The notes below the pieces were generated by a model that saw only the letters and a list, made by a program, of their open reading frames with translations, was not told the DNA's origin and did no database searches. This document shows, in pieces, positions 4,028 through 58,417 of a stretch of DNA of 64,000 bases. The number at the start of each line of letters is the position of its first letter. The first letter of the stretch is position 1. The position numbers were made by a program, and so were the translations under genes. This DNA comes from Chamaea fasciata (Eukaryota; Chordata; Aves; Passeriformes; Sylviidae): contig JARCOQ010000002.1 of assembly GCA_029207755.1 (NCBI GenBank), forward strand, positions 112,145,745 through 112,209,744, given 5' to 3'.

Positions 4028-4113
4028 CCTGTTTTTAGTGTCACTTAAATACAGTATTGAGTAGTTTGGATCCTGTCTCTCTAGATTGCCAGTGTTAGGA
4101 GTCATTGCAGTAC
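4028..4113 (-). CDS. Gene A exon 13 (probable): cytoplasmic tail
   Basis: A good pyrimidine-rich acceptor (CTTCTCTTCAGCCTATCCCCTATAG) opens a frame that matches the phase of exon 12. It adds GTAMTPNTGNLERQDPNYSI followed by LYLSDTKNR. Y-S-I-L fits the YxxPhi endocytic sorting motif. The end pattern (NL..., NYS, ..D) loosely resembles the UMODL1 tail in this window (YNLRIKSDNFSYQVFYD). Either a GTGACT donor at 4027 ends the exon, or the frame runs on to a stop at 3869. No convincing further exon was found. Confidence 0.5.
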
Positions 4114-4423
4114 CTATAGGGGATAGGCTGAAGAGAAGTCCCTCTGTTCCTCACTCTACCACGTGTACAATGTGGAAAATCCCATACCTGTTTAAAGGAA
4201 GATACATTAGGTGCTGTTAAAAGCTCAGGAGTTTGGCAATGGACATTGTGAAGGAAAGGGTGGAATTATCCAAAGTTAATATCCACAATTAACATCGAAT
4301 TGTAAGATAAATATATTCGTTTTCTGCCTCACCCAAAATATTTAAGTGAAACTGATGGTTTATCTTATAAGTGCTTGTAGACAAACATTCCGATGAGTCC
4401 TGAGGGTTCAACCAAGTATTTAC

Positions 4424-4561
4424 CTGATCTTCTCCTCACATAGAAGAAAAACAGTATTGCCAGGAGGATCAGCACTATTGCAACTCCAAGTAAAACTCCA
4501 AGGACAATCACTGCTACTCTCCAGGAGGAACTGTTGTCAGTTGAGGACTGAACAGACAGAG
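4424..4561 (-). CDS. Gene A exon 12: transmembrane segment
   Basis: A 138-nt exon, phase 1 at both ends. After a short Ser-rich stretch (ALSVQSSTDNSSSWR) comes a hydrophobic helix of about 26 residues, VAVIVLGVLLGVAIVLILLA and ILFFFYV. It is followed at once by the stop-transfer RRR, which sets a type I topology. The donor GTAAAT follows RRRS. If that donor were ignored, translation would stop after 18 more residues. The upstream acceptor TTTCCAG, not the nearer TTCAG, keeps the phase. Confidence 0.85.
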
Positions 4562-5068
4562 CTGGAAATTTAAAACACATTTTAGAAATGTTAGCTAGAA
4601 ACAGTAAAGAAGTGGGTGTAAGAAATCCTGGAGCCCAAAGTGACAGCTGTGTTTTACTGCTTGGCAGCTTTGAAACTTTTGAATAATATCGAAAATGTTT
4701 TTGTGTGTGGTGAAGATTTGTTAACTAGTAATCTTTTCTGAGGGTCCTTGTGATCTCTTGGTGACACCCATAACAGCTGCTCTGAGGATTTGCTGGATGG
4801 AATGGTGTAACCTGAGAGTCTTTAGATCCTTTAAGTGTGAAGAGAACCCATCCCTTCAGTCTGGAACTGGGTATGTGTAATGACTCTTTAAAATAGATCC
4901 ATAACCTGTATGAAATCACTATATGTTCAGTGAATGTTTAAATAGGTTACTTAAACTATTTGAATCTCTTAAAAGAGAGAAGTTATTTTATCATCTTAAT
5001 TTAACAGCAGTAGATCTGACCCTTTAATCCCCACATCATTGCAGAGAAGGTGTTTCAGCATCACTGAC

Positions 5069-5261
5069 CTTGCACTTCAGTTTGGTTCCCAAACTTGCTC
5101 TGAACCACTTCATTCAGGTAGGTCTGTACAGCATTCACATCCGTGGCTTCTTCTTTTAGCAGCACAAAGAGAAAATCAGCCACCACACTGCCGGGTCTGA
5201 ACCCCAGGATGACAATGTAGAAGTGGTCATTCCCTAGTCTCTCCTGCATTCCTTCAGCAAC
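5069..5261 (-). CDS. Gene A exon 11: second SEA domain, C-terminal half
   Basis: A 193-nt exon, phase 0 to phase 1. FYIVILGFRPGSVVADFLFV contains RPGSVVA, almost the MUC1 SEA self-cleavage motif (cut between G and S). The rest, ATDVNAVQTYLNEVVQSKFG, is the second helix region. This is the membrane-proximal SEA. By analogy with MUC1, cleavage would leave a large shed-able ectodomain bound non-covalently to a short membrane stub. The acceptor is TTGCACAG and the donor GTCAGT. Confidence 0.88.
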
Positions 5262-7334
5262 CTGTGCAAGGTGAAATTGAGATTTATTCCACTTGTCAGC
5301 CAGCTGAGGCAGAGCAGGAGCACGCACACACATCCTGCACACATCAGGATATCAAATTTTCTTCACTTACTACTCTTTCGAGGTTATTGTTTTGGGATAA
5401 CAAATAAACTTATTGAAAGAGGATTCCTGAGCCACGCATTGTCTGTGATTGAAAATGTGAGATCTGAGTTTGACTTCCAAAGCTCCAATCTGTTTAGCTA
5501 GTTATCAATGAATAATGCATTAAAACAACTTGTCCTCCTCCACAAACCCATATGGGACCCCGACCTACAAAATTTAGAATTTACAAAGAGCACTCAATAT
5601 TTCTAAAGTTATGTCCAGTGTCCCCTAACTTTTTTTTTTTACAAATGCAACTAAACTTCAAGCATTGTCCTGCACGCACTACCAGCACAGAACTTGATGT
5701 GAGAGGTTTAAAACTTACTTTTGTCACCAGATTTTCAAAGTCATGGCGTTACAGAATACCTTTGCAAAGAGAAGAAAGGATGTGACTTGCCTCTCAATCA
5801 TTCTGGCATAAACCAAGTGTATTCCCATGACACCAATCAAAATCAAATCAGTTGCACTGATATCTCCAAAAGTAGAGTCTTGCTTAGTACTTTCACTTAG
5901 ATACAAAGCAAGAACAAGCAGTGCCCTTTTTTAAGTGAGTCTGGTTGAAATGTTTTTGTCAGGACTGATCTTTTCAGAAAATTAGGTGTTCCATTCAATC
6001 CACTAAGAGAAGTTATCTTCTCAGTGTGGATAAATATGGTATTTTACCTGAAAGTCTGAAAGATTACTATTTTTTGTAGATGATAACAAACCTTGGTCTG
6101 AGTCACTGCTCAGTTTTCTGCCTCCATCTTTTCTGTGGGATAAACCCCCACCTCAAACTTTACATCCCTTTAAGTTCTTTGGCCAAAGGCTCCAAAAATG
6201 CTTTTCTTTTCCTCATCTTGATGAGCAGTCTAGATAGGAAACCTGATTTATGCAGGCAAAACTGTAAAATTTCAAAGCTACAACTACAGAGTGGTAGTAC
6301 TGTGGAATATAAAATAAATGGTTCCACATTCAAATTGAAAAAAAAAATCCAATACAGAAATTGTCTATACTTTCAATCATGTTAGTACAGCCTCTCTTTG
6401 ATTTTGCCATTATTTGAAGAAAAAGCTGACACTTTGCATGAGGTAAAAGCTTATTAAAAGCCAGAAAAGAGATTCCTGTTGCGTTGAGTCAGGTTGGAAG
6501 AAACCTTTTACATCCACTAAAATGAAATTTCTATCCATGAAGTGGAGATGTTAGCAGTCATAAGACAAGGTTACCTCCGAGTTGGCGTGGTGAGAACAAA
6601 TTAATTACTGCTTTTGAAATCTGTGGAGTTTCTTAGCTAAAGGGTATGATCATCCCACTAAAAATATCTGTGTTAGTTATTTAAAGCTGTCTACCCCAAC
6701 CTCAAAGTAGATTTACCTTTCCAGCAGGCGTCTATACATCAGGATTCCTGAGAGGTGTTGAAATGATTAGGGTTTTCTTTTTTAACGTGCTGCTAAAGAC
6801 AGTTGAGTGGCAGACAGATGCTGCTGCCTGTCAGCATGACTAACTCCAAGCTTCCACTTTCTCTCCTCATTTTCCCCGTGAGATGGACCCCTTGATACTT
6901 TGTCCAACCCTGCAGCCACTTCCATGTAGCGAATTGCCAATGACCTGGACTCAAAGTACACTCTAGCAAAGTTCTTATATTTCCAAGTCTGTGCTGAACG
7001 GCTGTTTTTGAGTGACATCCCTTTTTTGCCTCCACAGGCTTCAGTTTAGTGAAGTGGGAGAAAATAAACAGAACGGGATGTTCCTTACAAAATTAGAATT
7101 GTAAAGGGCCTTTCACTAAATAACTCATGTTTGAGGATGGCTTAGGGAAGGTTGCCCCCCTCATTGGACAACAAGCTGTCTGTCTTTGGCAGATTTTGGG
7201 CTTCCTATGCTGTTTTTTTTCTTTTTCACCTGTCAGAGTCTTGATTTAACAATGAATATAGGAGACTAAGGTTGCTAATCACAAGCCTTTCTGCAGTTCA
7301 TTCATGTTGACAAAGAAGATTTGCATCAACTTAC

Positions 7335-7444
7335 TTCTTTTTTGATCCTTTCAGACGCTGTTTTGTAGCCATCACTATCAGAGTTATAAAGTGTATTATT
7401 AAACATCTGGTTTGTAAACTTAATGTTGCAGGCAAATGCTTGGT
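7335..7444 (-). CDS. Gene A exon 10: second SEA domain, N-terminal half
   Basis: A 110-nt exon, phase 1 to phase 0, giving ACNIKFTNQMFNNTLYNSDS then DGYKTASERIKKE. This is the SEA opening (strand 1 and helix 1) with the same phases and nearly the same length as the two other SEA first-half exons in the window. The acceptor TTTTTTTCCAG and donor GTAAGT are both strong. Confidence 0.82.
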
Positions 7445-7554
7445 CTGGAAAAAAATTTAGAAAAAGAAGAAACATTTAGGTGAATCCCAGGATTATCTCC
7501 ACAATTGGTCTTTGGACTTTATTTTATAATATGAATTGATAAAACCAGAAACTA

Positions 7555-7555
7555 A

Positions 7556-7618
<63 letters not shown>
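7555..7618. repeat. (AAT)n microsatellite
   Basis: About 21 uninterrupted AAT units lie in the intron of gene A between exons 9 and 10, just upstream of the SEA-2 acceptor in gene direction. Poly-Ile reading frames on both strands are artefacts of this repeat. Confidence 0.95.
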
Positions 7619-8091
7619 TTTTAAAAGTGTATTCTGTGTGTCTAATGCAGTGGCTTTGGAACTTTCAGAGCTGAATCTCTCCAAGTTTGTCAGCCATCAC
7701 AATCGTCACGACTTGTTCACCATCCCTGTATTATTTAGGGTGCATCCCACTCCCTAATTCAACAGCCACTCTCCCATTGATTCCAGCAGAAGCAGCACCA
7801 GTCTGTTAGACTCCGCAAGGCTCTGAGTGAGTTTAAATCCTCCTGAGTAGGTGGATGAGCCCTGAGCCAAAAGAAGAAAGCTTTACATAGAAAAGTCCAG
7901 ACTAAAATAGAGCTGGAAGCTGACACTGAAGTTTGATGGAGGCAGCTTCTCCACCAAAGGAGTGTGAACTTCAAGATGCTGTGTGAACTGGCATCATAAA
8001 GCAGATGGCAAAATACTCAAGGGAGATACTATATTGTGAAATAATACCCCGTAGTTATGGATAAACAAATGTTGAGGTTCTATAAACTTAC

Positions 8092-8175
8092 TGGAGCAGA
8101 CAATGCCTTTTAAGTCAGAGCAGCCAGTACTTTGTGCTGAACAAAAATCAGTTCCTTTGAAACAGGAAGCAGGAT
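8092..8175 (-). CDS. Gene A exon 9: small Cys-rich exon
   Basis: An 84-nt exon, phase 1 at both ends, 28 residues long. It contains CFKGTDFCSAQSTGCSDLKG followed by IVCS, that is four cysteines spaced 6-6-7. The acceptor is TTTTGCAG and the donor GTAAGT. The spacing does not match a full EGF domain and I recognise no family. It sits between FN3-2 and SEA-2 and preserves the reading frame if skipped. Confidence 0.65.
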
Positions 8176-9807
8176 CTGCAAAATAAATGTAAAAATCGAG
8201 ATAATCGCTTTTGTGCATGCATTATTAATGCTAATAAGAAAATTATGGAATAGGTGAAAGTCTTTAATTATGGCCAAGGAGTCACCTAAGCAGCAGTTCC
8301 TTTGGCCCAGTGAGAACTCAGAATTGCAAATTATAAACTTGGAGCATATCACAAGAGAGGCAGGTGGTGGGTGGGTAGGTGGTATTTGAGAATTCACTGA
8401 AATAGCATTGAGAACTCTGATTTCTTATGAGAGCTAAAGATATAGGTTGTGCTATTACGTGCTTGTACAACTCAGGTAAGCTAGATGGAGTTTTCAGAAG
8501 TAAAAGTCACCTGCAGTTTCTTTTGGAAAAAACATATTCATCATGGAGTCTCAAAATCTCAGCATGCTTGTCTGGACTTGCTAATCTGAATTATTTATGA
8601 AGGGTCAAAACCCATTAAAGGCTGATATAGCAGGTTTTATGTGGTTAGCTCATTGGATTGTATCTCCAGTTCTCGCAGAATTGAACATCATCTTTAATTT
8701 CACAGGAAATATGGATGACTTGGTCTTTATTGCTCTTTTTAGTTGGCTTACAAACAATTTGCTGGTAGGGCTGATGGCTCCAGATTACAAAAGGAGACCA
8801 TTTTTTTATTTTTCTTCAATAGAGAAACTAATAAATGAAAGCCAGTGGGCTGAAGAATTGCAAGATTTCAATGGAAATAATGACGAGAATTCCTTGGCTT
8901 TGTGGTCCTAAAGACTGTGGAGAGAGGGTAAGTCCATCAGAAGGAACCCCCACAGTTGACTGACAAAATAATTGCCCTGAAGGGTTTTGAGAATAATAAG
9001 ACAATCCACTAGAGAACTCAAAAAAGGATTGCAACAAGGACATTTATGTTTCAGAGGTCAAGAAATGCTGGAAGAAATCAACAGTTGCAAAAAGTCAAGT
9101 TAGAGCTTTCAAGTTATATAAAAAGAAATTGTGAGCACTTTCTCAGCCACTGGGAAAGAATGATAAAGTGCAGCACAGTTTTATCAAAGGTGGATCATGC
9201 CAAAATAACCCAGTGGCTTCCTTTGATAGGCTGACTTTTAGATCTCTTCCAGTGGTGGAAAAGCAAAAGTATACAGTGCCGAGTGGTAATTTTGTTTGTG
9301 GAAAAAGTTTTGTCTAAAGGAATTGGCTAAGGGGGAGACGGCAATGGGGAGTTTTAAAAGGAGAAACCTTGATTTAGAGGGATATGATGTGTCATGTTCC
9401 TTCAGAATCAGTTTTAGCACAGAGACACAATCAAACTCTTTGCCTTAATGTCTATAACCCAGGATGAAATTAAAAAGGCAACAATGACAATTAGGGACTG
9501 CCTGCATGCACAAGAGCATCTAGAACCTAAAATTCACACTGCCAGAATATTTTCTGGTAAATTTACAACCAAAATATCCTGACTTCCGTGCAGAATTATC
9601 TGACTCAATAATGCAACGTGATCAGAAATTTTACAGAGCAAGTTCTTACTTTTGCAAACTCCTGTTTAGTTCAAGCAGTCCTATCCAAATAAATAAAAAC
9701 AACTGGCAGGAATAAGGCTCTGTGAGATCAAGTCCAGATCGTATGGCAGCAAGAGGCTGTGAGTTTATATTAATTAAAAAGAAAAGCCAGGGTGATGGAG
9801 GAGGTAC

Positions 9808-10047
9808 CTGTTCGGACAGTGACTGAAGTAGGTTTATTCTCAGCACAAGATGACACTACCACAGAAATGGTGTACACATGGCCAGGAAGCAGGTTTTTAA
9901 ACACAGCTTTTGTCTCATTTGTAGTTTTTGTGTTTATCTCCTTTCCATCCATGATAGAGATGTTGTAGAGGCTGCCTTTGCTGCTGCTGGTCCAGCTGAG
10001 CTGTATTTCTTCTTCAGTCACATTCTGAACTTCGATGGACACTGTCA
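9808..10047 (-). CDS. Gene A exon 8: second fibronectin type III domain
   Basis: A 240-nt exon, phase 1 at both ends, coding for an 80-residue FN3 domain. VSIEVQNVTEEEIQLSWTSS carries the strand-B Trp and LYNISI the central Tyr. AVFKNLLPGHVYTISVVV has the L-P-G-x-x-Y strand-F signature, and it ends in SVTVRT. It is clearly related to exon 3 (NVT...W...NLL.G..Y.ISV), which points to duplication of an FN3 unit. The donor is GTACCT. Confidence 0.88.
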
Positions 10048-10789
10048 CTGGAAAGCGTGAAAGTTTCATACAGCTGAGAGCAGTTAATTTCACTTCTGAA
10101 ATTCTACACATTTATCATTGAAGAAAATATACAAATTAAACCAATATGAACTCCTGTGTGTTTTTTTGGAGCTGATTTCAGTTTTCCACCTCATTCTCCC
10201 GAAAAAGCAGAAGTGAACCATTTGCTCTATAGACAGAAATCATATATTAATGTACTTTGTTTGATGGCTCTAAAACACAAATGGGTGATATTCTGCTTGC
10301 TTTTAGCCTTTGTAACTGCAGGCAAAGTGTGGCAAATGGTCAGAATTCTACAATGTTGCTTTAAGATAATAGAGAATTGATGAGGCTGGTTGAGAAAAAC
10401 AGGAGCATTCTGAAGTGGACTGATATTTGATTCATTCTGATATCCTCAGGAGGATGGATTTTTTAAATACCACCAGGAAAACCTGAGCTCAGAGCATTTA
10501 TTAAATGTGCTTCATAATAGGGTTAAGAAAACTCACCTATCACACTGGTTTATGCCTGCAAGCAGGCACCCAGTGAATATTTACTGGGTCCAGGAGAGCT
10601 TTACAAAGGTGCAGAAACTGCCTTGATTGATATTTACATAATTATGCATTTTCAGTAATTTCATCAGGCTTCCCTTTCTGAAATTACATCCAGGGATTTT
10701 ACTTCACAGCTGATATGACCAATGAACACGAATATTGTGTCTAATTGGATCATTTTCATTCTACTATTCAGTACCAAATATTTACTTAC

Positions 10790-11590
10790 TGCAAGGTGCT
10801 GACGTAAATGTGGCAGCGGAAACGGAACTAGATGTAGATCCTGTAAATCCAGCTGTATTGGTGTCTGGAGGGGCTGGAGTTGTTGATCCTGTTCCAGTTG
10901 TACTGGTGGTTTTGGTGTTTGGAGGGGCTGTGGTTGTCTGTCCTATTCCAGTTGTACTGGTGGTGTTGGTGTTTGGAGGGGCTGTGGCTGTCTGTCCTGT
11001 TCCAGTTGTGTTGGGGGTGTTGGTGTTTGGAGGAGCTGTAGTTGTTGATCCTGTTCCAGTTGTGTTGGGGGTGTCGGTATTTGGAGTGACTGGAGTGGTT
11101 GATCCTGTTCCAGTTGTACTGGTGGTGTTGGTGTTTGGAGGAGCTGTAGTTGTTGATCCTGTTCCAGTTGTACTGGTGGTGTTGGTATTTGGAGAGGCTG
11201 TGGCTGTCTGTCCTGTTCCAGTTGTGTTGGAGGTGTCGGTATTTGGAGTGACTGGAGTGGTTGATCCCGTTCCAGTTGTACTGGTGGTGTTGGTGTTTGG
11301 AGGAGCTGTAGTTATTGATCCTGTTCCAGTTGTGTTGGAGGTGTCGGTATTTGGAGTGACTGGAGTGGTTGATCCTGTTCCAGTTGTACTGGGGGTGTTG
11401 CTGTTTGGAGGAACTGTAGCTGTCTGCCCTGTTCCAGTTGTACTGGTGTTGTTGGTGTCTGGAGGAGCTGCGGTTGTTGATCCTGTTCCAGTTGTGTTGG
11501 GGGTGTTGGTGTTTGGAGGGGCTGTAGTTGTCTGTCCTATTCCAGGTGTATTGGTGGTGGTGGTGTCTGGAGGGGCTGTAGTTGTGCGTT
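10790..11590 (-). CDS. Gene A exon 7: 18-residue mucin tandem repeats
   Basis: An 801-nt exon, phase 1 at both ends, of 267 residues. It is almost wholly 14 tandem copies of an 18-residue Thr/Pro unit, typified by TTTAPPNTNTPNTTGTGS. It ends SAATFTSAPC before the donor GTAAGT. Thr next to Pro and the lack of charge mark dense O-glycosylation; some copies add N-sequons. The opposite strand is also open over 288 codons because the repeat lacks stops in that frame, but only the minus strand fits the flanking exons and splice sites. Confidence 0.85.
10830..11585. repeat. 54-bp coding minisatellite, 14 copies
   Basis: Fourteen 54-bp units lie head to tail with no frame break. Two main subtypes alternate irregularly: TTTAPPNTN- type and TTPVTPNTD- type, with TATA/TATV variants. 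The TTPVTPNTD type appears as units 5, 7 and 10. The last unit is degenerate. Near-identical neighbours suggest recent unequal exchange or slippage, so copy number is probably polymorphic. Confidence 0.9.
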
Positions 11591-11865
11591 CTGTGAAATA
11601 AAAATTTGGAGGCAGTGAGTAGAATTTATCTTGAAGGTGACCAAGTTTAAGCTTCTTATTTTCAAGAAGCAAGCCCAGAAAGCTTGCTGCTATTGCTTGC
11701 CTAAATATTTAACTGTGGTACCACATAAAGTCCAATCCCTTCAAGGCCCGTGTACATAATTATAGTAATATATTGCCTGAGGAGGGTCAGGGAAGGGAAA
11801 AGACCTTATTTGCAATTTTTTTTAAGGTTTGGGGTGGGGTTTTTTAACTTATATAAAGCAGTTAC

Positions 11866-12018
11866 GTGAAGGTGGATCCTGCTGACAATCTCTGCCTGGA
11901 ACTTGGGGACTCCTATCAGTGAATCCTTGGTTGCATTGGCAGGAGTAAGTGGCTTCTTCAGTGATGCAAGCAGCATTTTGGTCACAGTCGTTTAAACCTG
12001 GCTCACAGCTATTCCTTG
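11866..12018 (-). CDS. Gene A exon 6: EGF-like domain
   Basis: A 153-nt exon, phase 1 at both ends, with an EGF-like module. Six cysteines occur in the order C-x6-C-x5-C-x8-C-x-C-x15-C, starting at SCEPGLNDCDQNAACITEEA and running through YSCQCNQGF to GRDC. The D/N-rich start and the Y/F before C4 fit the family, with an extended final loop. The donor is GTAACT after the last P-S codons. EGF next to SEA is usual in membrane mucins and in UMODL1. Confidence 0.85.
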
Positions 12019-12192
12019 CTACAGTGGAGTTAAACAAAACAGAAAAAGAACAAAGGTTTAAGTCAGTATTGGGCAAAGGGATAAACCAAGTACCATTTGC
12101 CTTTCCCCACCCAAATCCCGTTTCACCAGATGTTACCATCAGTGAAAAATACACACTACTGCTTAAACTCATGGTGATGAACAAATTCATAC

Positions 12193-12412
12193 CTTCTACA
12201 AAAGTCTTTTGATTATCAATGTTAAACACTGTGCTCCTGTTAAGGGCCTCTGTAAAAGCGTCTGAAATCTCTGATTTTGTTATATTTTGTCCAATATCCG
12301 ACACAATGTCATAGCGTATAATCACACTGCCATTCTCGATGCTATGAATTACAATACGTAGTTTTGTTCTATTTTTTAAATCTTGTATCTTCTGTGGCAG
12401 ATGTTTTGTTAT
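12193..12412 (-). CDS. Gene A exon 5: first SEA domain, C-terminal half
   Basis: A 220-nt exon, phase 0 to phase 1, which completes the SEA domain begun in exon 4. It includes IVIHSIENGSVIIRYDIV. The N-G-S-V-I-I core sits where MUC1-type SEA domains cut themselves between Gly and Ser, so autoproteolysis is possible. The following ISDAFTEALNRSTVFNID is the second helix region and resembles the matching UMODL1 segment (TTFCEALEHSSCLTID). Confidence 0.87.
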
Positions 12413-12723
12413 CTGCAAGGTAAAAGGTTTGAGTTAGTATCTATTTTTCTTCTTTAACATATGGCAATATGCTAGCCATAATTCAGTTAAAAGCAGCTGT
12501 CATAGTGGGAGAATATGTATAGCTTCCAGACAGAATTTCATTTAAATCAGGGCCTCAGAGGACAACAATATAAATGAAAAATGACTTCTGCTTCATGTCT
12601 AACCATCACATAATCTTTTCCACCCACATTTAAGATATTCACACCCAGATGCTCATGGTTATTTACACTAGGAAAAGCTCAACGGAAAATAAAATTTTAG
12701 TTTAGAATTTCTAAGCAAAATAC

Positions 12724-12836
12724 CTCCATAATGAATTTCTTTTCTAACTCCTTAAATTCTGTGCTTGATTTGTTCTCATATTCAGGCTTGAAAACTTCAT
12801 TCTTAATCCTAGTGGTTCCCCTGTAGACTTCAGCAG
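12724..12836 (-). CDS. Gene A exon 4: first SEA domain, N-terminal half
   Basis: A 113-nt exon, phase 1 to phase 0. It codes for a charged segment with FKPEYENKSSTEFKELEKKF, the classic opening of a SEA domain (first strand, then helix 1). Its length and phases equal those of the UMODL1 SEA exon at 61203-61315 in this window, and the residue pattern is similar. The SEA fold continues in exon 5. Confidence 0.85.
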
Positions 12837-13203
12837 CTGTGGACATATGAAAGAATACCCAGACAAAATGAAGTTATTTAAAAATGGTTTCTCAGCTAAG
12901 TAAGACTTGGGAATTAAAGTGCATGGAGCTGGGAGAGGCTTGAGAACACTGAACCACTGTGGTTCTAGCTGAGTAAAGTTTTGAATTTGTCAGGAGAACC
13001 AAGTGAAGCTCTGGATCTTAGCCCCATGAAAAATTTGCAGTCTGACTTTAAATTTCTCTAAGTTTGGCCTCCTTTTGCCTATTCATTTCAATATGTAGCT
13101 TATTCATGTCCAGGTAGGTGCTCAGTGTAAAAGGGCTTCATGATCAGGCCATGAATGTGTTAGTTTGCTAACAGGAAAAGAATAAAAAGTCCAGAGGAAA
13201 TAC

Positions 13204-13458
13204 CTGTCTGAACTGTCAAGGAGGTACTGACATTCTTAGAGCAAGTTGAAACATTCACGGATATTTGGTACTGACGACCAGAAAGCAGATTTTCAAATGA
13301 AGTGCTTGTTTCATTTAGGGTTTTCTCCTCCATCTCTCCCGATTTTCCCAGCAGTCTCACTGTGTAAGGGCTGTCTCCTGTGCCACCTTGAGGTTTCCAG
13401 CTGAACTGTATCACTGTGCTGGTCACGTTCTGCAGCTGGATGGACAAAGTGATAGGAG
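13204..13458 (-). CDS. Gene A exon 3: first fibronectin type III domain
   Basis: This 255-nt exon, phase 1 at both ends, holds one complete FN3 domain of 85 residues. It shows the family pattern: ITLSIQLQNVTSTVIQFSW, with the conserved Trp in strand B, then a central Y (PYTVRL), then the SFENLLSGRQYQISV loop and strand with its conserved Tyr. It ends in SLTVQT. Several N-glycosylation sequons are present. FN3 domains act as spacers or ligand-binding modules in surface receptors; here the domain joins the mucin stalk to the first SEA. Confidence 0.88.
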
Positions 13459-13594
13459 CTGGAAAGCAGGAAAGGAAATCCTTGTGAAGCACGTAGTTAT
13501 AGTCTGTGTGTCTTTAAGGAACAAAGTATTAATGGGAAACTGACAGCCTAGGGAAATACTGAAGTATCTGGAATATTTCTATAAAGATATGAAA

Positions 13595-14560
13595 CAGAAT
13601 CGTATCACAAAATCACAGAATTGATTGGAAGGGACCTTAAAAATCATCTGGGCATGGGCAGGGACACCCTCCACTATCCCAGGGGGCTCCAAACCCTGTC
13701 CAACCTGGCCTTGAACACTTCCAGGGATGGGGCAGCCACAGCTTCTCTGGTCAGCCTGTGCCAGGGCCCCACAACCCTCACAGGGAAGAAATTCTTCCTA
13801 TTATTTACTCTAGCCCTACCCAATTTCAGTTAAAAGCTGCTTGTCCTGTCACTACGTGCCCCTGCACAAAGTCCCTCTCTTAGGTCCCCTCTAGGTACTG
13901 GAAGGGGTTCTATGTGCCCAGAGCCTCCTCCAGGCTGAACAGCCCCAACTTTTTCAGGCTGTCTCCATTGCAGAGGTGTCCCAGCCCTCTGAGCATCTTT
14001 GTGGCCTCCTCTGGACCTCCTCCACTTCTTTCTCATGTTGGGGATCCCAGGGTTGGCGGCAGCTCTGCAGGTGGGATCTCACCTGGGCAGGGCAGAGGGG
14101 CAGAATCCCCCCTCCCCTGCTGCCCACGGTGTTTTGGATGCAGCCCAGGACATTTTTGGCTTTTTGGGCTGTGGGGGCAGCTGGCTAAGTCACGCCCAGC
14201 TTTTCATCCACCAGCACCCCCAAGCCTTTCTCCTCAGAGCTGCTCTCAGTCTGTTCATGCCCAGCCTGTGTCTGTTTGTGCTTGGCACTGCCCTGACCCA
14301 CGTGCAGATGTCGCACTTGGCCTCCATGAAGTTCACAGGGAGCCACCTCTGGAGCCTGTCCAGGTTCCTCTGGATGCCATCCCTTCCCTCCACAGTGTCA
14401 GCTGCACCACACAGTGTGGTGTCAGCAGCAAATTTGCTGGGGGTGCCCTCAATCCTGCTGTCAGTGTCACCCACAAGGACATTAAACAGTCTCAGGAGTG
14501 ACCGCTGAGGAGCCACTCGTCACTGGGCTGTCCTCGGCCATTGAGCCACTGTCAAAAATC
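13595..14560 (-). mobile_element. CR1 LINE 3' fragment with reverse-transcriptase remnant
   Basis: The low-coordinate end carries the CR1 terminal motif (AATCACAGAATTGATTGGAAGGGACC read on plus), so the element points to the minus strand. At 14516-14190 the minus strand keeps a recognisable end of the CR1 reverse transcriptase: VLVGDTDSRIEGTPSKFAAD followed by TTLCGAAD. It lies in the intron between gene A exons 2 and 3. It is the longest CR1 in the window. The plus-strand open frames here are shadows. Confidence 0.88.
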
Positions 14561-14927
14561 AAGTTGTACCTTACTCTGTGTGTGTCCGTATCTCCCACTG
14601 CATTCCATGAACACTGTGATTCCAGATCAGGGAAGGATTAACCCCTTGGACTAATGGATCTCGAAGAATACCATGGTGCACTAAAAATGGAAGTCATGCT
14701 GCCTTTGTTTGTTGGGTGCAGAGTACAAGAAGGCTGCATTCTCCCCTTTTCCATCTTTGCTTTATTTTTTTATCCATTGAAAAATGATGAGAGGTTCATT
14801 ACTGCATATTCTTTGAATATGGGCAGATAGCCCTTTGGCAAAAAATTAAAGACACACTAGAAAAGAATTAGTATTGAAACAAATAAGAATCGAGCTAGCA
14901 AAAAAAAAAAAATCAACTGTATTCTCC

Positions 14928-14990
14928 CAATCAACAAAACCAATAAAAACCAATAAAACCCAACAAAAACCAATAAAACCCAATAAAACT
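14928..14990. repeat. (CCAATAAAA)-like minisatellite
   Basis: About six imperfect 9-11-base units (CCAATAAAAA / CCAATAAAAC / CCAACAAAAA) occur in the intron between gene A exons 2 and 3. The minus-strand Trp/Phe-rich frame here is a by-product of the repeat. Confidence 0.8.
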
Positions 14991-15281
14991 TCCCATTGAT
15001 ATAACTTGGCCTATGCAGTATAAATACATAGCATATTACCCATGTGGCACTGCCTAACACAAGGTGTGTCATTTCAAAAACAATTCCAGACAGGAACTGC
15101 AGCTTTTCAGAAAATAGCTAGAAGCAGGGATTTGTATTCCTGGATTAAAATCCCAGCTTAAAAAGGGACATTGTAAAAAGCTCGAATTCCAACCAAAAGT
15201 AACAATAATGAAAGAAAATTGTCCTCAACCCTTCCAGAAATAGAGGGAAATAAATTTAGTATCATGTGTTAAAATACTCAC

Positions 15282-16520
15282 AGCAAGTTCCAGTAAAAGG
15301 GAGATCAACAGATGTTGATTTACTAAGGCTCGTCGTGGATGGGGTTGCCAAGGATGTGGAAGGGAGGGAATGGGAGGTGCTGGCAGTGGGCTCAGGTGTC
15401 CTGATCTCCTGGTTCGTGGTGGAACTCTCCCCTTCTCCAGGAGGGATGGTGGCAGAGCTGCCTGCAGAGGCTGTGGAAGGCAAGGGGCTCCCCGTGGGAG
15501 GTGAGGTGGCCGTCACCTCTGTCACCTCGTCCAGGGGCTGTCCCTGTGTGAGGGTGTGTCGGGGTTCTGGTGTCTCCGTGCTGCTGCCTGCTGTGGATGA
15601 ACGGCTGGAGGCAGTGGTGTGTGAGGCAGGAGAGGTGATGGAGGCAGAAGGCACTGGATGAGTGCTGGCTGTGCCGGGAGCCGGGCTGGGTGTCACCTCC
15701 TCTGCTATCACAGTGTCTGCCTCCACGCCTGTGACACCAGCAGTGGAGAACAGGAGTGCTGTGGGTGGGTGGGATGTGGTGGCCAAGGATGTCCCAGTGG
15801 TGCTGCTGCTCTGCTGGGGAGCCACAGCTGGGGAGCCCATGGAAGAGGTGCCAGAGGTGGAAGGCACTGGGCTGGTGCTGGGTGTGAGGGGAGCTGGGCT
15901 GCTCATGGTGGGCTCTACTCCCAACTCAATTCCTGTGATGCCAGCAGTGGAGGAGGGAGAGGAGAACACCAGTGCTGTGGGTGGGTGGGATGTGGTGGCC
16001 AAAAACATCTCAGTGATGCTGCTGGTGCTGCTCTGCTGTGGGCTGGGAGTCACAGCTGGGGAGCCCCCGGGAGAGGAGGAGGACGATGACGAGGACGATG
16101 AGGAGAAGGAGGACGAGGATGAGGAGAAGGAGGGCAAGGATGAGGAGTGCCTCGTTGTGGCTGAGCTGAGAGGTGGGGAGGATGCAGTGCCACTCTCTGT
16201 GCCCGTGCTGGGGGCAGTGGTGCCAGTTCCTGATGTTGGGAATGCTGCACTGCTCTCAGCAGACATCCCCAATGCGCTCCCTTCCCTCCTGGTTGTTGTG
16301 GGTGTAGTGCCCATCCTCTCTTCTCCATCTACCATCCTCATCATGGGGGGGGACGGCGAGGTTGTGCCCAGGAGGGCATTGTTAGTTTGGGTGTTGGGCT
16401 CTGGCACAGAAGCATTTGAGCTGTTTGCAGCTGGGCCAGGGCTGGTGTCCGTGTTTGTGCTCCTGGAGACATTGACGTGGCTCCCAGCAGTGGCAGTCGT
16501 CGTGTTTCCTCCCTCCAATG
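15282..16520 (-). CDS. Gene A exon 2: large Ser/Thr/Pro mucin exon
   Basis: This 1,239-nt exon codes for 413 residues and is phase 1 at both ends (acceptor TAACAG, donor GTGAGT). Ser, Thr, Pro and Ala dominate, with almost no aromatic residues and a single Cys at the very end. That composition marks a densely O-glycosylated extended stalk. N-linked sequons (NTT, NVS, NSS, NAS) cluster near the start. It contains a poly-Ser stretch encoded by the GAGGA-rich tract at 16078-16145. It also contains two imperfect copies of a roughly 70-residue unit, each carrying TTSHPPTAL. The low-complexity sequence evolves fast, so homology searches alone would be weak here. Confidence 0.85.
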
Positions 16521-16894
16521 CTGTTACAGTACCTGTCAGAATTTCAGAAATGGGGATTATGAATTGCTGCCCTGTAATTCTGTGAAGTACTTTAATAGTC
16601 TACCAAGTGTGACTTTGTTCCTGTGCAAAAAAATCACTTAATGCTCTCATCTTTCACTTAATGTTTCATATTCTTTCCATTCCTCAACTGCCATGAAATT
16701 TCTGTTACTTCCTTTTCCATTTGCATAAATTTGAGGAGATCTTACAAATTTCCTGGTAATGTTTTTTTTCTGTATAAATGTAGAGATTTATATAACCTTT
16801 CTATTCCTAGCCTACTTTTTTTTTTTTCAATTTTCTATGTACTTTTCTTTTTGTAAATATTATTTCATTTAAAGAAAGGAAGTGGTATAGTGGC

Positions 16895-16978
16895 AGACTC
16901 ATCAGTGTTAGATTTCAGGTTGGACTCGATCCTAAAGGTCTTTCCATCCTTAATGATTCTATGATCCTATGATTGTTC
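16895..16978 (+). mobile_element. CR1 3' end fragment
   Basis: A short CR1 tail, TTTCAGGTTGGACTCGATCC..., ends in ATGATTCTATGATCCTATGA, the usual CR1 terminal repeat. It lies in intron 1 of gene A. Confidence 0.75.
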
Positions 16979-18354
16979 TAAAATAAAATTTCTAGATAAT
17001 TCACAGCAAAACTAAAAATTAGTGGAATGCATTTTCCAGCATAATTTTCTCCTTATCTCCTTACCTCTCCTTACCTGTTTGTGTACATTTGATTGCTTCA
17101 ATTTCTTTATTTTGCAAGGCATTTATTGTTTTTGTAATTACTTTCTGTCAGGCAGGAGAGAACAATTTTTCTGAGGATATTTGTTGATGTTCTAAATTAT
17201 ATTAATCCTGGGTTAAAATTCATTGCCTTCCTATGTTTACCTCTATTTTTAACTACAAATAAATTGCAACTCCTGTAGTTTGCAAGTGTGAGGGTGACAA
17301 CATTTCTTTTAAACAAAGTTTATTTAAAAGGAAAATTAAACCCTTTTTCCATTGTGATTAAATATTAAGGCTAATTTGGGCTTACTTAATTTACTTGATC
17401 TGGTAATTCAACATTGATTTTAAAGAGTGGCTTTGTTCCCGTTAAAAACCCAGACACATCCTTCTGCCTTATTGCAATTTTACTCCTTAGCAACACTTAA
17501 TTATTATCTTGGATCTTTGGGTTTGGCTGAATGCAACTTAGAGGATTCTCAGGCAGGGTGTACTGGAGCACCTCTATCAAATTTTCAAGAATCACATTAA
17601 TTAACTGCTTTTGACTCTAATCACCTGTAAAAGGAAGGTGGTGTTTTCATATTGTTCGATGTCTATATAGAAACTTGTAATGTAACAAAACATATTTTTC
17701 AAGATTCTTCCTACAGACTGGTATCTTCTTTTACACCCAAATACAGTTTGAATTGTAAGGTCCTGTGCTTGTATTTCTCAGATTTTTAACAGTAGGCATT
17801 GATCAGTCAAGAAACTTGTGTTCATCTGCACTGAATGACATGAAACCAGGCATTAAGAATAAAATAATGCAGCCCTCTAAATTTCTAGATTTTTTTTTTA
17901 AATCTCTTGCAGTGCAGTGAGAACACAGCACAGTTAATACATCCTAATCCATGTTTTTTAATGTGTATTTTCCTAAAGAGTCTTTCAGAGGAGAAAAATA
18001 GGCAAAATGCATCTTTCATAACTAAGCTTGGGGGTAAAAAAGCCATAAAATCTGGTCAGACACTGCATGTTTGATCTTTTAGGTGAGTTTCCTGAATACT
18101 TTGCTCTCATTCTTTTACCTACTTACAGCTTTATATCCCTACTAAAATATCTGCTGAAATCCAATGCTAAATGAATAAATTAAAAAAATAAACCCCACAA
18201 TCCTGTAAATATTACATGTTATTGGTTTTTATATCTATTTTTAGCAGCCCCCCTTCCCTTATTATTGCTTTTAAATGTTTCTCAAGGACATCCTCTTAAT
18301 GTATAGCGACAATAAATAAAAATAAATAAACAATCAAGTACATTTTTTACTTAC

Positions 18355-18403
18355 AGAGGGAAAGAGAGAGGATGAAAAGCCAGAGGCAATTCCGAGTGCC
18401 CAT
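18355..18403 (-). CDS. Gene A exon 1: start codon and signal peptide
   Basis: The start codon sits in a strong context (A at -3, G at +4). It opens MGTRNCLWLFILSLSL, a short basic/polar start followed by a hydrophobic core, as expected for a signal peptide that sends the protein to the ER. The exon ends after one base of the next codon at a good donor, GTAAGT. It joins in frame to the mucin exon 1.8 kb downstream, which continues S-L-E-G-G. Cleavage is probably near this junction. Confidence 0.75.
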
Positions 18404-43231: not shown

Positions 43232-43419
43232 CTAATCATAGAACACTTGGTAGCTGAAGTTGTCAGACTTGATCCTGAGGTTGTAACTTCCCATCTTTCG
43301 CTGATACTGGAAAATGAGAAGGGTCACAACTCCCAGCACAAAACCAAACACACCAAAGGCTATGAGGATGATGTATCCAATTCCCATGCCAGCCTCCTTC
43401 TCTCTCTTCAAATCAGATG
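43232..43419 (-). CDS. UMODL1: UMODL1 last exon: transmembrane segment, tail, stop
   Basis: The exon starts in phase 1 after TTTTTTTAG. It codes for SDLKREKEAGMG, then the hydrophobic IGYIILIAFGVFGFVLGVVT and LLIF, then QYQRKMGS and the tail YNLRIKSDNFSYQVFYD with the stop TAG at 43234-43232. A single membrane span after the ZP module fits family topology (extracellular ZP, short cytoplasmic end). It is preceded by an Arg/Lys/Glu-rich stretch. Confidence 0.85.
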
Positions 43420-45926
43420 CTAAAAAAATACAATAATAAAATAAATTTAAAAATCAAGAGGTGAAAGAAAAAATAACGTTGAAACTCCTGAATCTTTTAC
43501 TGGGATGGGGGGGGAACAAGCCCTGAATATTAAAATTAGCCAACATGCCAGTACAGAATTGTGCTACAGAAGTGTATCACCCTTCTGGGAAGGGTGATTC
43601 TCATGGAAAGAGTGTGAGGACAGACCATGTTCTCTTTTTACACACCATTGTAGAGTCCCTACAGACATGAGTGTGATTTTCAGCTAAAGTGAGAATTAAA
43701 GAATTAATGCTGGTGACTTTTTAAAATGCTGCCTGACCTTCAGAAGTGCTTTAGAGGTGAAGCATTCCCCTATCTTAATCCTGTCTCCATTCATCTATGA
43801 TTATAAAAATGCCTTGATTTGTTTTTAACATAGAAGTAACAGTTCTGCAGGCACAGAGTATTTGGGGAAGGATTCTCTGTGTGTGCTGGGTCTCTAAGCT
43901 GCAGCTGAGCCAGCAGAGATGTGGCTGGGGTGGTCAGTGGAGTGACACTTGGCTTGGTCACCAGAGGCTCAATGCTACACCTGAGCAGTCCTTTAGAGCC
44001 AAGTGAGCAGCCTGAGGCTGTCTGCAGTGTCTGCACAGCTCTGGCAGACAAGACCTGCAGGAGACCTGTACTCTGCTGGAAGAGCACCCAGACTCAGAGG
44101 GGAAGGGAAGAACCAACACCAAACGCCCCAGTGTGGGCAAGAGTCAAGTCCCACATTGCCAGCTGCCCCCCAAGGCATCACAGACAGAAAGTGTTCTCCT
44201 GGTTCCCTTTCAACCACTCCCATATATTTGTCCAAATCTGCAAGCAGAAACCCCTCTCCCTTTATTATTATGCCTCTCTTCATGTTTGTACAAGTTTTTA
44301 TCATTCCTTCCTGCAAAGGCTCGATGCACCTACAGAAACATGCATTTGTTTGCTTACATCTTCAGGACAGCACTTGTTTTGCCAGGCACTCGTGTGGTAC
44401 CTGAGGTACACAGAAGATGAATACCACTGCACACATGCCTGCAATTAAAGACAAGGTTTTTGGCCAAAGGGAGCTGCTGGCAGCCACAGAGGTCAGTAAG
44501 AGCAGTGTTCAAGCTACAGGACACCCAGGGCATCCTTCCAAGACAGGCCAAAGCAGTGCTGTGTAATATATTTAGTCTCATTTTTGAATTCCAGCATAAA
44601 ACAAAGGAATAAAGTAGAAGATGCACAGTGGAAAAGGCAGCCTGTAGCCAGACACACAGCAAGCCCTCCTGAGGATGTGGCACAGTGGCCTTTGCCATCG
44701 CATGTGACCAAGTGTTGGCAGAGCAGGTAAAGTTTTTCATGTTTCACTGCAGCACTTACACCTGTTACTACCTGACATCATAATTCATGTTATCCCTTTC
44801 AACACAGAGATGTAGACCACTGAAAATGTGGTGTGATTATCCAAACTAGAAACAAGTTTCCAAAAAAAGCATCCAAAAGGGCCACCTTTTCCTAGAAATC
44901 AATTTAGCACAACCCAAAGAAAGCTTGCCTCACCAGAAGCCCTTTTGGGAAATGGCCATTTTTCAAAATTAGAAAAGAATCAGGGTCTCCAGCAAAAATG
45001 GGAGTGAGAGCTCCATGCTGTAAGAACTAAACAAGGAAAGCTGCACTAATTGCTTTAATTTTTTTTTTTTAAGAACTAATTCAGAAATGAGCACTGAGGG
45101 CCTATTTGAACAGACCATGTAATGGAAGAAAAATACACTCTCCTAAGTCAGAGTCAGTTCCGAGGTCCAAAAGAACATTATGGACTGTCTATTCATGGTA
45201 GGCACAAGTGAAGACTCTGATATTGGTGAGCCAAAACATTCTCAGTGAGTGTTTTGCATTAAGAAGTTATAAATGTAAAGCTGGAGGGGGGCAAATGACT
45301 GAAAACATGAGAGACCACGGGTGCCCTTGAAAGCATCATTCAGGTTAAACGCAGAAAAAGCAGGTGCATAACAAACTGGACCTTGCTTGTCCCCAGTGCT
45401 GGTGTTTGCCCTCAATTAACCTGTGCTGCACCAAATTAACCAAAGGTGCTGGGCATCAGCTGTGCTCTGCCACTTCCCCTCGCCGTGGTAATGAAGTCAA
45501 TACCAGGGAGCCAAAGGAAACACAATTAAATCTCTCACATCCTCTGATTTGGGACTTCAGAGCCCCAAATAATTGCAGACTAACAGCAGTGCAAACACTT
45601 GGCAAACCGGTTGCAATCTGAAAGATCGACTCCGCTTTCAGACTTTACAATTGAAATAATTGTTTGGTTTTGTGGTTGTTGCACTTGTTACCCTGTGCAA
45701 ACAGCCACACAAAAGCACTTTATCTTCCTTTCTACATTCCCCTGACAACCTGACAGTCCCTGCTCCGAGGAGGGCACAGTGCTCCTCCACGCTGCCACGT
45801 GGCTCCAGCAAGAATGCCTGCTCCCAAGGGATACAGAGGGGCACGAAAACCCCTGTGTGCCACAGGCCTTCAGGTTCCTTTGCCAGTACAAAATAATGTT
45901 GACGTGATAATCTGTTCACAACTCAC

Positions 45927-46014
45927 CAGCTGATTTACACAGGGGTCCCCAGGATGTTCTGTGCAGGGAGATGGTTTCTCCAGCCTTCAGAAGTCCAGCC
46001 CTCGCATGGCATCT
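45927..46014 (-). CDS. UMODL1: UMODL1 exon between ZP-C and membrane segment
   Basis: An 88-nt exon, phase 0 to phase 1, links the end of ZP-C (CRT) to the membrane exon. It encodes RCHARAGLLKAGETISLHRT followed by SWGPLCKSA. Its Cys residues probably complete the ZP-C disulfides. The region where ZP proteins are cleaved shows RTRCHAR across the junction but no clean R-x-x-R furin site. The acceptor is GTTGCAG and the donor GTGAGT. Confidence 0.75.
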
Positions 46015-47520
46015 CTGCAACGATCAATTCAAACTCCAGCAAGTCATGCGGTTTACTAATTCAAAATACAAAGCCTTCTGATGAGCTTGTGAAAGCCCAG
46101 TGCTACTCTCGCCACTGGGCTTTCGTTCCTTAATGTTATGCTCTGTTAAACTGAAATTAGCACCAAAAGGAAGTCCAAAAGAAATGGCATCAGGGAAAAA
46201 CCAGTATAAAATCTGTAATTAGTCACACTGGAACACACTGCTGGGAACAGACATTTCACAGAGACAACCTTTTCATTAACTTTCTGTTTATTTTAGAGAA
46301 ACCTTACGGGAGAATAAGTTTATCACCAATGCCAGGGTTTTGCAAGCACTTTTGTTGAGATGTTTCTGCTGCCCATGGCAGGCACAGCAGACTTTGCAAC
46401 CAGCAGCAGCAGCTTTCAGTCCCTGCCAAGCCATGCGTCATTCTGAAGCTACCCACAACCTCAGTGACACGTGAACCACTAATCTGGGAACTACAATCCC
46501 TGTCCTGTGGGCTGCTGGGGATCAGCTGCTTTAGCTCTGTGTGAGCAGCACTTGCACAGGCATTTTCTGAGCACTTCCTTTTTTTTTTTTGTTTGCTGCC
46601 ATTTTTTGTTTTAAGTCAAAGCCTAAAGGTCCCTGATGGGAACCAAAACCTACTGGCTTTTTCCTGTGGCTCTCCTGGAAGGACACAAAAACCCCCAGAG
46701 AAATGGCAGCATCATACCATGACCAATAAAATCAGCAGGGCGTCTTAGCAGCTTGTTTACACCAGAATATCTCACCAGTGTTACCAGTTTGGCTGCACTG
46801 GAAAATCTACAATCCACTGCCAGCAACAGTGTCTTCAGCTGCATCATCCCCCCAGAAATACCCATGTGGTTATTTATGACTTTGGTCTGTCCACAAACAG
46901 CTTCCCCAGGTAGGTGGATCTGTTAGAGAAGACATTTATGTAGTTGCTCCCTGATGACAACGAATTTTTGGTTCCACATGGCCACGGAGCAGCCACGTTC
47001 CACCAAACATCTGCATGGTGGTGGCACATCACTCGTCTTCCCATTCAAAGGAATTTTTCTTACTCATTTCTTACTACTTTTCTCCTTAGCCGGTCCATTT
47101 TTTTTCAACTCTAAACTTTAGGGCGCCTTACACTCTTCCACAGAGAAAACAAGGAATAAATAGACAGAGTAAGAAGAAATAATACAAGATGTAAGTATCA
47201 AGTGTGTGGGTGAAGAGCTGGGTTAAACCTGCCCTGAAGCAAATCACTGTTCCCCAGAGAAACAGATCAGAGGGTCGGATCCCAGACCCAGGCCACTTTC
47301 CCAGCCAACTTTCATTATTTACAAATATCCTCTGTTCTTGCTAATTTTTCTTGATCTTTGCACCTTCTGCAGCTCCTCCTCCCTTCTTTGTAAAAGCCAT
47401 TGCTCACCCTGTGTAGATGTGCCTGGTCTTCCCCCACATCACAATTTAGCCTCAGTCGAAGATACTGAATTCACTGACTTCTCATAGGGGTAAATTTGCA
47501 TAGGAGAAAGAAAATGTATG

Positions 47521-47584
<64 letters not shown>

Positions 47585-48771
47585 CATACATACATATATA
47601 TACATATATATATATACATATATATACATATATATATATACACATATATATACATACACATATATATATATTCATACTCAGCTGCAAATACTGGAGCCAT
47701 CTTACCATTGTCAGTCATGTTTCCTGTCCCTACTTTGTTTTTTGGTTTTTTTTGTTTGTTTTTTTTTTTTTTGTTTTGTTTTGTTTTGGGTTTTTGTTTT
47801 TTTTGTTTTTTTTTTTTTAATGGAGGAAGCCTTATACTTTGAGAAAGGAAACAAGCACCTTCTGGTAGCCTTTTTAAATCCTTTAGGAAGAGATCATTTG
47901 CTTTATAATGGGTTTAAACTGTATTATTTAGAGCTAGAGGAAAGTGTTAAACAATGGGGGAACACCAAACTGCTAATGAAAACATCCTTGACAGAAAAAG
48001 AGCCAGGAAGGTTGGCAGAGGAAGAGGAGAATTCCCAAGTGTCTGCTAGTAAGAAAAAAAAAAAAAAGCCATCAGTTAAACGTATTTTTTCTTATTTCTA
48101 TGGTAGCAACACAGTTTTAGATAAAGCTGTGTATTCACTTGCAAGTAAAAAGAAACAATGCAATGCTTTGTAGCACAGACAATTAAAAACTGCAGTTCTT
48201 ATCAGAACATGGCTTGGTTTATTGCTTTAAAAATCAATCAGGCTTTAAAAAGCCATAATAAACTCTATTAAAGTCACAGCCCTAGAAACTTAATGACACT
48301 GAGCTTCCTTTCCCGGCACCTAAACTCTCAGTTGGAGAAACAAATCTGAAGGGGATAAGAAAAAAAGGACAGAAAAAAATATAAATTTCCTCATTCTTCT
48401 GACACTGCTACTCTGGGAGTTCCTATTTTGTGACACATCCATCTGAGCTGATACTTTTCTAACCAGCCTAATTTCACTGCTTTTTAGTCATCCTTAAAAT
48501 GAGTAAAAGGTCCAGTTCTCAGGTTCCCCAACCCTGCTCCATGCTTTTATCTAGGAAGATGAACAACAGGAGAAAAAGCTGACACTTCCATAGTGTTTCC
48601 CCACTCCTCTCTGCTCTCACCAGAGAACAAAGGAAACCTCAAGAGTTATTTCAAACCTTGTTTGGAAACATTACTCCTTCCATTCCGTTGCAGGACTCCA
48701 TATGGCACTGAGAAAAATATAGTTTTTGGGGGTAGGGGGTGGGGAATAGTACATCAGAGCAAAACACTTAC
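46015..48771. other. UMODL1 intron with microsatellites
   Basis: No exon is seen between the ZP-C exon and the 88-nt exon. It contains the (TA)n array and T-rich tracts listed separately. The next UMODL1 intron (43420-45926) likewise shows nothing coding. Confidence 0.6.
47515..47672. repeat. (TA)n / (TATACA)n microsatellite
   Basis: About 60 bases of pure TA are followed by CATA, TATACA and CACATA variants. It is followed at about 47738-47817 by a T-rich tract with G interruptions. Tyr/Ile-rich reading frames on both strands are artefacts. Confidence 0.95.
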
Positions 48772-48931
48772 AGTCCTGCAGGTGCTTCCTGGTGACTCCA
48801 GACAAATACGAATTCTGCAGTGTAAGTAAACCACAGAGTTGTTGACAAAGGAAAAGATTTTCATCTTAAACTGAGCTTTGCTCGAATTCCCATTTTCCAG
48901 CAGCGTGGTGTAAGTGTTTGGGGTGGGACAG
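48772..48931 (-). CDS. UMODL1: UMODL1 exon: ZP-C domain, second part
   Basis: A 160-nt exon, phase 2 to phase 0. It contains CPTPNTYTTLLENGNSSKAQ, then FKMKIFSFVNNSVVYLHCRI and RICLESPGSTCRT. The F-x-x-F and Y-L-H-C-x-I-x-I-C core is the hallmark of ZP-C. The acceptor is CTTTTCAG and the donor GTAAGT. Confidence 0.88.
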
Positions 48932-49816: not shown

Positions 49817-50053
49817 CTGTTGCTGATAAAAACAAATGCCAAGGGATCCACCGAATTATTGGTTGGAGTGGCCCAGCAGTCAGTGAGAACCACCTTGAGC
49901 TCGCTGTCTGCCCTCTGCATCTCCACTTCGATCAGCACATCCTCACTGGCAGACACGCTGAAATTTTTGGGGACTGGGGAGTTTCCAATAAACAGCTGCA
50001 TTTCTGTTCTGAAGTGTCCAGATCCGTGCAAATCCTCAAAGACGGTGTAAAGC
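49817..50053 (-). CDS. UMODL1: UMODL1 exon: ZP-C domain, first part
   Basis: A 237-nt exon, phase 2 at both ends. LYTVFEDLHGSGHFRTEMQL is followed by FIGNSPVPKNFSVSASEDV and then LKVVLTDCWATPTNN. The M-x-L-[FY] strand and the L-x-D-C-W-A-T-P motif are ZP-C signatures. The acceptor is TTTTTCAG and the donor GTACAG. Confidence 0.88.
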
Positions 50054-51480: not shown

Positions 51481-51617
51481 CTGAGCACAGGACTCCCAGG
51501 ATGGCAGACTACTCCCAGTGCTGTCACTGGATACCACTACGGCCCCTGGGGGTTTTCCCAATGCAGCAGCACTCAGCCACACACCAGAATTTCAAAGCAG
51601 AGAGAGTTGTTCCTCAC

Positions 51618-58367: not shown

Positions 58368-58417
<50 letters not shown>

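Follow-up and report, generated by a model that had tools for sequence, protein, structure and literature searches.

Does the run of exons that follows UMODL1 in a bird genome form a gene of its own and, if so, what kind of protein does it encode and where did it come from? We analyzed a 64,000-nucleotide stretch of the Chamaea fasciata genome (C2:112145745-112209744; genome 1.19 Gb), hereafter the window, within which all positions are counted and in which a first-pass annotation had proposed an undescribed transmembrane mucin gene. The locus proved to be a genuine gene that is conserved in birds and other reptiles. We consider it likely that the gene is an ancient paralogue that arose in tandem with UMODL1, and that its product is a type I membrane mucin that would cleave itself at a SEA domain and could be shed.

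Structure of the mucin gene

The rebuilt spliced gene lies on the minus strand (4365..18403), like all of its exons given below, and consists of 12 coding exons whose 3,663 coding bases plus stop form a single open frame of 1221 amino acids (aa), with GT-AG at 11 of 11 introns and all exon phases compatible. The longest open stretch within 4.0-18.5 kb had 445 codons, and at most 228 were seen in 200 base shuffles. Together with this frame, conserved homologues in birds, turtles and lizards bear out the proposal of a real gene; it is the homologues that settle the matter.

The domain order is a signal-like start, a Ser/Thr/Pro exon, a fibronectin type III (FN3) domain, SEA, EGF, 18-residue mucin repeats, FN3, a Cys-rich exon, SEA, a membrane span and a short tail. 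Against the curated Pfam cut-offs (SEA 26.4, fn3 25 and EGF 21.5 bits), fn3 and SEA each scored above threshold twice and EGF once, the last by a narrow margin. Exon 1 (18355..18403) holds the start codon and a signal-like peptide, MGTRNCLWLFILSLSLC, resembling the starts of the homologues numbered here P0003, P0005, P0006 and P0018; this start is hydrophobic and, as read from the sequences, is likewise kept in other birds. It is followed by the mucin exon 2 (15282..16532, aa 17-434, 54% Ser, Thr and Pro), the first FN3 in exon 3 (13204..13458, 32.1 bits), the first SEA (SEA1) in exons 4 (12724..12836) and 5 (12193..12412), which jointly score 32.9 bits, and the EGF-like domain in exon 6 (11866..12018, 21.9 bits). 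Exon 7 (10790..11590, aa 681-948) consists of tandem mucin repeats (a 54-base unit, 13.5 copies; 63% Ser, Thr and Pro), and exon 8 (9808..10047) encodes the second FN3 (28.8 bits). Exon 9 (8092..8175) contains four Cys and is 47% identical over 30 aa to the turtle Cys-rich segment, and exons 10 (7335..7444) and 11 (5069..5261) jointly encode the membrane-proximal SEA (39.7 bits). Read from the translation, the membrane span WRVAVIVLGVLLGVAIVLILLAILFFFYV comes after this SEA and is followed by a tail beginning RRRS. The two Ser/Thr/Pro exons, the SEA adjoining the membrane span and the short tail support the proposed transmembrane mucin.

The C-terminal end had to be revised. The earlier model had counted 13 exons and placed the gene end at 4028, and in it GGTAAATAC, just past exon 12, was apparently read as a donor and an exon to 4028 added. 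Read through past this supposed donor, the frame gives GKYLVEPSGLIGMFVYKHL (ending in RRRSGKYLVEPSGLIGMFVYKHL) and a stop that ends at 4365. Exon 12 (4365..4561), with the membrane span and a short tail to YKHL and the stop, therefore replaces both final exons of that model; exon 13 with its acceptors was ruled out by the conserved read-through tail of the homologues. The tail GKYLVEPxxLLGNFVYKHL, or one near it, ends the models of Hawaiian crow, hawfinch, swan goose, mute swan, guineafowl and spot-billed duck; the flatback turtle model closes with GEYWLEPKGLLGNFAYQYL, and the horned lizard has GKYKTELQGIMGNFEYT at its tail. Altogether, the tail was whole in seven of the 15 family proteins compared (these six birds and the flatback turtle) and begun in a further three (two lizards and one flycatcher); it was also whole in Pithys, which is beyond those 15. 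Whole family tails end in Y-x-x-L or F, and the four UMODL1 tails compared hold Y-x-x-F in the corresponding region; such an end may be a sorting signal.

Homologues and database names

An FN3-SEA-EGF query returned 20 proteins, assigned by name, domains and reading to the mucin family (16) and to UMODL1 with ZP (four). Identity over the query was 62-82% for 11 bird proteins and 51-54% for two turtles, and three further bird models showed 84-85% over a third of it. The lizards Pogona and Phrynosoma were added by searches with the turtle C-terminus, bringing the family to 18 proteins from 13 bird, two turtle and two lizard species. Among the 20 and 71 matches and the best 120 of 224 we saw no chicken protein of the family, nor any member from crocodiles, mammals, amphibians or fish; the search needs shared 5-residue words, so that absence from these groups is not established.

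In the databases these proteins are called mucin-5AC-like, mucin-19-like, mucin-2-like, cell wall protein DAN4-like, uromodulin-like 1 (P0006 and P0008) or L-lactate dehydrogenase A chain, and others are labelled uncharacterized, hypothetical or unnamed. The lactate dehydrogenase name belongs to P0002 of the turtle Platysternon megacephalum, whose C-terminus is unlike that of the family. NCBIfam, a prokaryote library, gave nothing.

Relationship to UMODL1

UMODL1 (uromodulin-like 1, olfactorin) was the nearest relative found. In our own reading, python and gerbil UMODL1 carry FN3-SEA-EGF twice, then ZP and a membrane span, with one and two FN3 marked by Pfam in the two proteins scanned. Pfam, alignment and tree all place FN3-SEA-EGF units in UMODL1 order in the mucin gene. 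Since UMODL1 shows a matching order, two FN3-SEA-EGF units joined by a Ser/Thr-rich link, the sequences indicate that the order FN3-SEA-EGF-link-FN3-SEA was inherited from a UMODL1-type gene and not assembled anew. A membrane span and a short tail are also common to both. The first-pass annotation knew of no named vertebrate mucin with two FN3 and two SEA domains arranged in this way, and neither do we, but UMODL1 itself carries the module order, which that annotation had missed.

The two genes differ at their ends. The mucin gene has two long mucin exons and an extra Cys-rich exon, and its membrane-proximal SEA is only distantly like those of UMODL1, whereas WAP, ZP and anything like the N-terminal (EMI) region of UMODL1 are missing from it. 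In searches with python UMODL1, the WAP part (residues 108-165) matched only at 79 kb and the EMI region (residues 26-111) only at 85.5-85.8 kb (E <=0.01), and UMODL1 ZP parts matched only at 48.8-52.9 kb. Pfam WAP and ZP were each found in two of two UMODL1 and in none of three family proteins. Pfam EMI was unreported even in the two UMODL1 scanned, and the EMI label follows PMC8874799 (cited, like all papers here, from an excerpt).

A tree was built from 23 FN3-SEA-EGF units, 13 of them from the mucin gene, with P0175 as outgroup; it omits eight of the 18 family proteins (P0006, P0008, P0009, P0012, P0013, P0015, P0016 and P0018). All 13 included mucin-gene units formed one clade (100/100), in which Prinia was the row nearest to the window protein. 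UMODL1 unit 1 (100/100) and unit 2 (95/92) formed clades as well, each with bird, squamate and gerbil rows. An origin of the mucin gene within sauropsids from UMODL1 unit 1 was rejected (AU p 0.0009); the same origin from unit 2 was not (p 0.067). The branch to the mucin-gene clade is long (1.4 changes per site), so its deep position is unsure. Profile scores place SEA1 nearest to UMODL1 unit 2 (138.7 vs 99.7); the first FN3 is equally close to both units (35.3 and 35.6), and EGF almost so (54.4 and 51.4). The membrane-proximal SEA scored 33.4 and 17.0 against the SEAs of UMODL1 and 38.2 against SEA1. Its profile reached weakly to SEA-type domains of two transmembrane serine proteases (E 0.006 and 0.008), and a single-sequence search of PDB gave only chance-level matches. 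The tree argues for a distinct and old paralogue of UMODL1.

Architecture in birds, turtles and lizards

Architectures were compared by reading of the sequences and local alignments. Turtles have mucin, FN3-SEA-EGF, mucin, FN3-SEA-EGF-EGF, Cys-rich, SEA and membrane span; Pogona has mucin, Cys-rich-SEA, mucin, FN3-SEA-EGF-EGF, Cys-rich, SEA and membrane span; and birds have mucin, FN3-SEA-EGF, mucin, FN3, Cys-rich, SEA and membrane span. By itself, Pfam detects two stretches of SEA in the protein of the turtle and one in that of Pogona, the remaining SEA coming from alignment to the window. The second turtle unit is 50% identical to the FN3-SEA-EGF of the window, and the last SEA 42-45%. From these alignments, two FN3 with two SEA appears to be the bird form of a gene that has three SEA in turtles, and the second bird unit seems to have lost SEA-EGF-EGF. 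Turtle queries found no remnant of this part; a copy hidden in the intron after exon 8 was rejected, as these queries (E <=1, 4-18.4 kb) matched only exons 4-6 and the Cys-rich exon.

Candidate SEA cleavage motif and structure model

Both SEA domains carry a candidate cleavage motif. Counted by hand on the translation, the Gly-Ser pairs are Gly584-Ser585 in SEA1 (GSVII, exon 5, 12331-12326) and Gly1116-Ser1117 in the membrane-proximal SEA (GSVVA within GFRPGSVVA, exon 11, 5192-5187). GFRPGSV was invariant in five of five aligned rows and present in 13 of the 15 family proteins compared. The SEA of MUC1 is cut between the Gly and the Ser of GSVVV, and its parts remain joined (PMC9564314); the motif is given as GSVVV or GSIVA, and the loop that is cleaved lies between two strands (PMC6954182). 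An AlphaFold2 model of the swan protein places both Gly-Ser pairs (272-273 and 575-576) in a turn between two strands, at low confidence. In blocks of ten residues, pLDDT was 66-87 for the first FN3, 54-73 for the second, 47-83 for SEA1 and 45-78 for the last SEA. Foldseek superposed SEA1 of this model on MUC16 SEA5; it ranked FN3 proteins first, and MUC1 was absent among the best 50 of either list.

Comparison with known mucins and the literature

The features listed for SEA mucins were found as follows: the protein has PTS-rich (Pro/Thr/Ser) domains, two SEA domains, and a membrane span after the last SEA with a cytoplasmic tail. SEA mucins are also described as having a SEA phylogenetically close to that of known mucins (PMC1552070); the nearest SEA relative found here was UMODL1, in a tree that held no MUC1, MUC13 or MUC16 SEA.

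MUC1 shares mucin repeats, a membrane-adjacent SEA bearing a GSVV-type motif and type I topology with the mucin gene product, and differs in locus and origin; to our knowledge it has neither FN3 nor EGF. Several SEA domains, a mucin region, a membrane span and the fold of SEA1 are shared with MUC16, in which SEA domains form a long array and FN3 is not known to occur. Another contig (C28:1934118-1962760) carries an array of 20 matches to SEA exons, most of them spaced 1.1-1.4 kb and one with an in-frame TGA; this array is probably the MUC16 gene. MUC13 and HEG lie at another locus and, as far as we know, contain no FN3. Their PTS, EGF, SEA (MUC13) and transmembrane domains (PMC1552070) are common with the mucin gene.

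The 2006 chicken inventory, as far as its excerpt goes, names the membrane mucins Muc4, Muc13 and Muc16 and leaves one protein with SEA and PTS unresolved (PMC1552070). This protein, 'unknown' in Fig. 2 of Lang and others 2006 (PMC1552070), resembles ours in having a SEA preceded by a PTS domain and differs in that its authors, in the same excerpt, found no membrane span; that the two are the same gene would be a guess. The 'mucin-5AC-like' of edible bird's nest was rejected as the mucin gene, the excerpts treating it as gel-forming or mapping it to MUC5B (PMC8535018, PMC10516954). No paper describing the gene appeared among the matches listed in searches of the open-licence literature (subscription literature being outside that scope) on the gene, its neighbour and the database names. 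The term 'undescribed' therefore holds provisionally for those papers, but the gene is already annotated under inconsistent automatic names.

Locus

The strand order is UMODL1, the mucin gene and ABCG1, all on one strand. The 3' part of UMODL1 (second SEA, ZP exons and membrane span) was placed by tblastn with python UMODL1 at 43235..64000, continuing upstream beyond the window to about 85754, and a probe placed ABCG1 exons at -57336 to -65301. The mucin gene had been put directly downstream of UMODL1; it does follow it on the same strand, with 24.8 kb between it and the last coding exon of UMODL1. In humans, a gene of this kind is not known to lie between UMODL1 and ABCG1. No separate match to the second FN3 of python UMODL1 was obtained here between EGF and the second SEA, where the first FN3 matched again; the second FN3 of UMODL1 in Chamaea fasciata (window 61300-64000 and beyond) may be lost or diverged. 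Two introns of the mucin gene also deserve mention: the one between exons 9 and 10 contains a perfect AAT x 21 microsatellite (7556-7618), and the one between exons 2 and 3 a stretch resembling a CR1-type repeat (about 13600-14560), presumably an old bird CR1 copy. A piece similar to this stretch is fused ahead of FN3 in the Pitangus model P0013.

Proposed mechanism and alternative explanations

If the protein is a self-cleaving membrane mucin, O-glycosylation would make stiff rods of the stretches encoded by its two Ser/Thr/Pro-rich exons, which are separated by FN3, SEA and EGF modules. During folding, the membrane-proximal SEA would cut itself at Gly1116/Ser1117, the halves being held non-covalently; the glycosylated ectodomain could then stand on an epithelium as part of a barrier, from which shear or binding might pull it off, and the short tail with its YxxL-type end may set sorting or uptake. 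Relative to UMODL1, the polymer-forming ZP and the N-terminal WAP region are absent; next to the membrane, the gene has instead a Cys-rich exon and a SEA that is only distantly related.

Several observations weigh against this reading. The case is drawn from sequence and a predicted model, and the swan model is weak overall (mean pLDDT 53.5, 11 sequences). Grouping of the mucin gene with UMODL1 unit 2 is supported at 85/69 only, and grouping with all UMODL1 unit 1 rows could not be rejected (p 0.276). An intron within SEA is no peculiarity of UMODL1, as 23 of 23 SEA exon matches listed elsewhere in the genome stop at profile position 37-40. The motif is altered in two of the 15 proteins (GFRNGSV in Prinia, GLRPGSV in house finch), and five of the 15 models have a different tail. 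Among those five, the collared flycatcher model closes with GMEFSTLYTW, for which a possible window exon starting at 4187 offers the counterpart GMGFSTLYTW; an alternative last exon may exist.

Three other explanations were considered. That the protein is an adhesion or guidance molecule like UMODL1/olfactorin, with the mucin stretches as spacers, seems unlikely: FN3-SEA-EGF is kept at the identities given above for 11 bird proteins while lengths vary from 664 to 1917 aa, and olfactorin attracts GnRH neurons (PMC8874799), but WAP, to which modelling in the excerpt of PMC8874799 gives a central role, is absent, and a mucin better explains long repeats together with a membrane-adjacent motif of the self-cleavage type. 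It is very improbable that these are alternative 3' exons of UMODL1, making an isoform in which mucin repeats replace ZP. Strand, adjacency, module order and the uromodulin-like 1 names of P0006 and P0008 would suit such an isoform; the mucin gene, however, has its own start and signal-like exon, with an N-terminus conserved in P0003, P0005, P0006 and P0018, and UMODL1 ends at about 43235 with its own membrane span. A decaying gene, open by chance in Chamaea fasciata, is barely credible given a frame open over 12 exons and conservation from birds to lizards; the weak point in its favor is that two bird models, P0015 and P0018, are without SEA1 and EGF, which annotation may explain.

Implications

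Apart from 'uncharacterized', the family goes by six names or more; two of these are mucin-5AC-like and L-lactate dehydrogenase A chain, and mucin-5AC-like also names gel-forming mucins in the excerpts on edible-nest proteomics. Because one gene bears so many conflicting names, expression and proteomic hits may be attributed wrongly. Should it be an epithelial mucin, its place is among the listed surface glycoproteins of birds; the excerpted 2006 chicken inventory has no named entry for it, unless it is the SEA and PTS protein left aside there (PMC1552070). The first appearance of MUC1 has been placed in mammals (PMC9564314). As a rather doubtful extension, we tentatively suggest that sauropsids have a membrane mucin of their own, which arose at the sauropsid root or earlier when a UMODL1-type gene gave up its polymer-forming ZP end for a self-cleaving SEA. 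With MUC1 reported from mammals only, this gene would hold a MUC1-like place in sauropsids as a shear-sensitive, self-cleaved glycocalyx and would have been lost in mammals. The family would show a route from a ZP-type protein to a mucin, in which the core unit was kept, the ends were exchanged and the link repeats grew.

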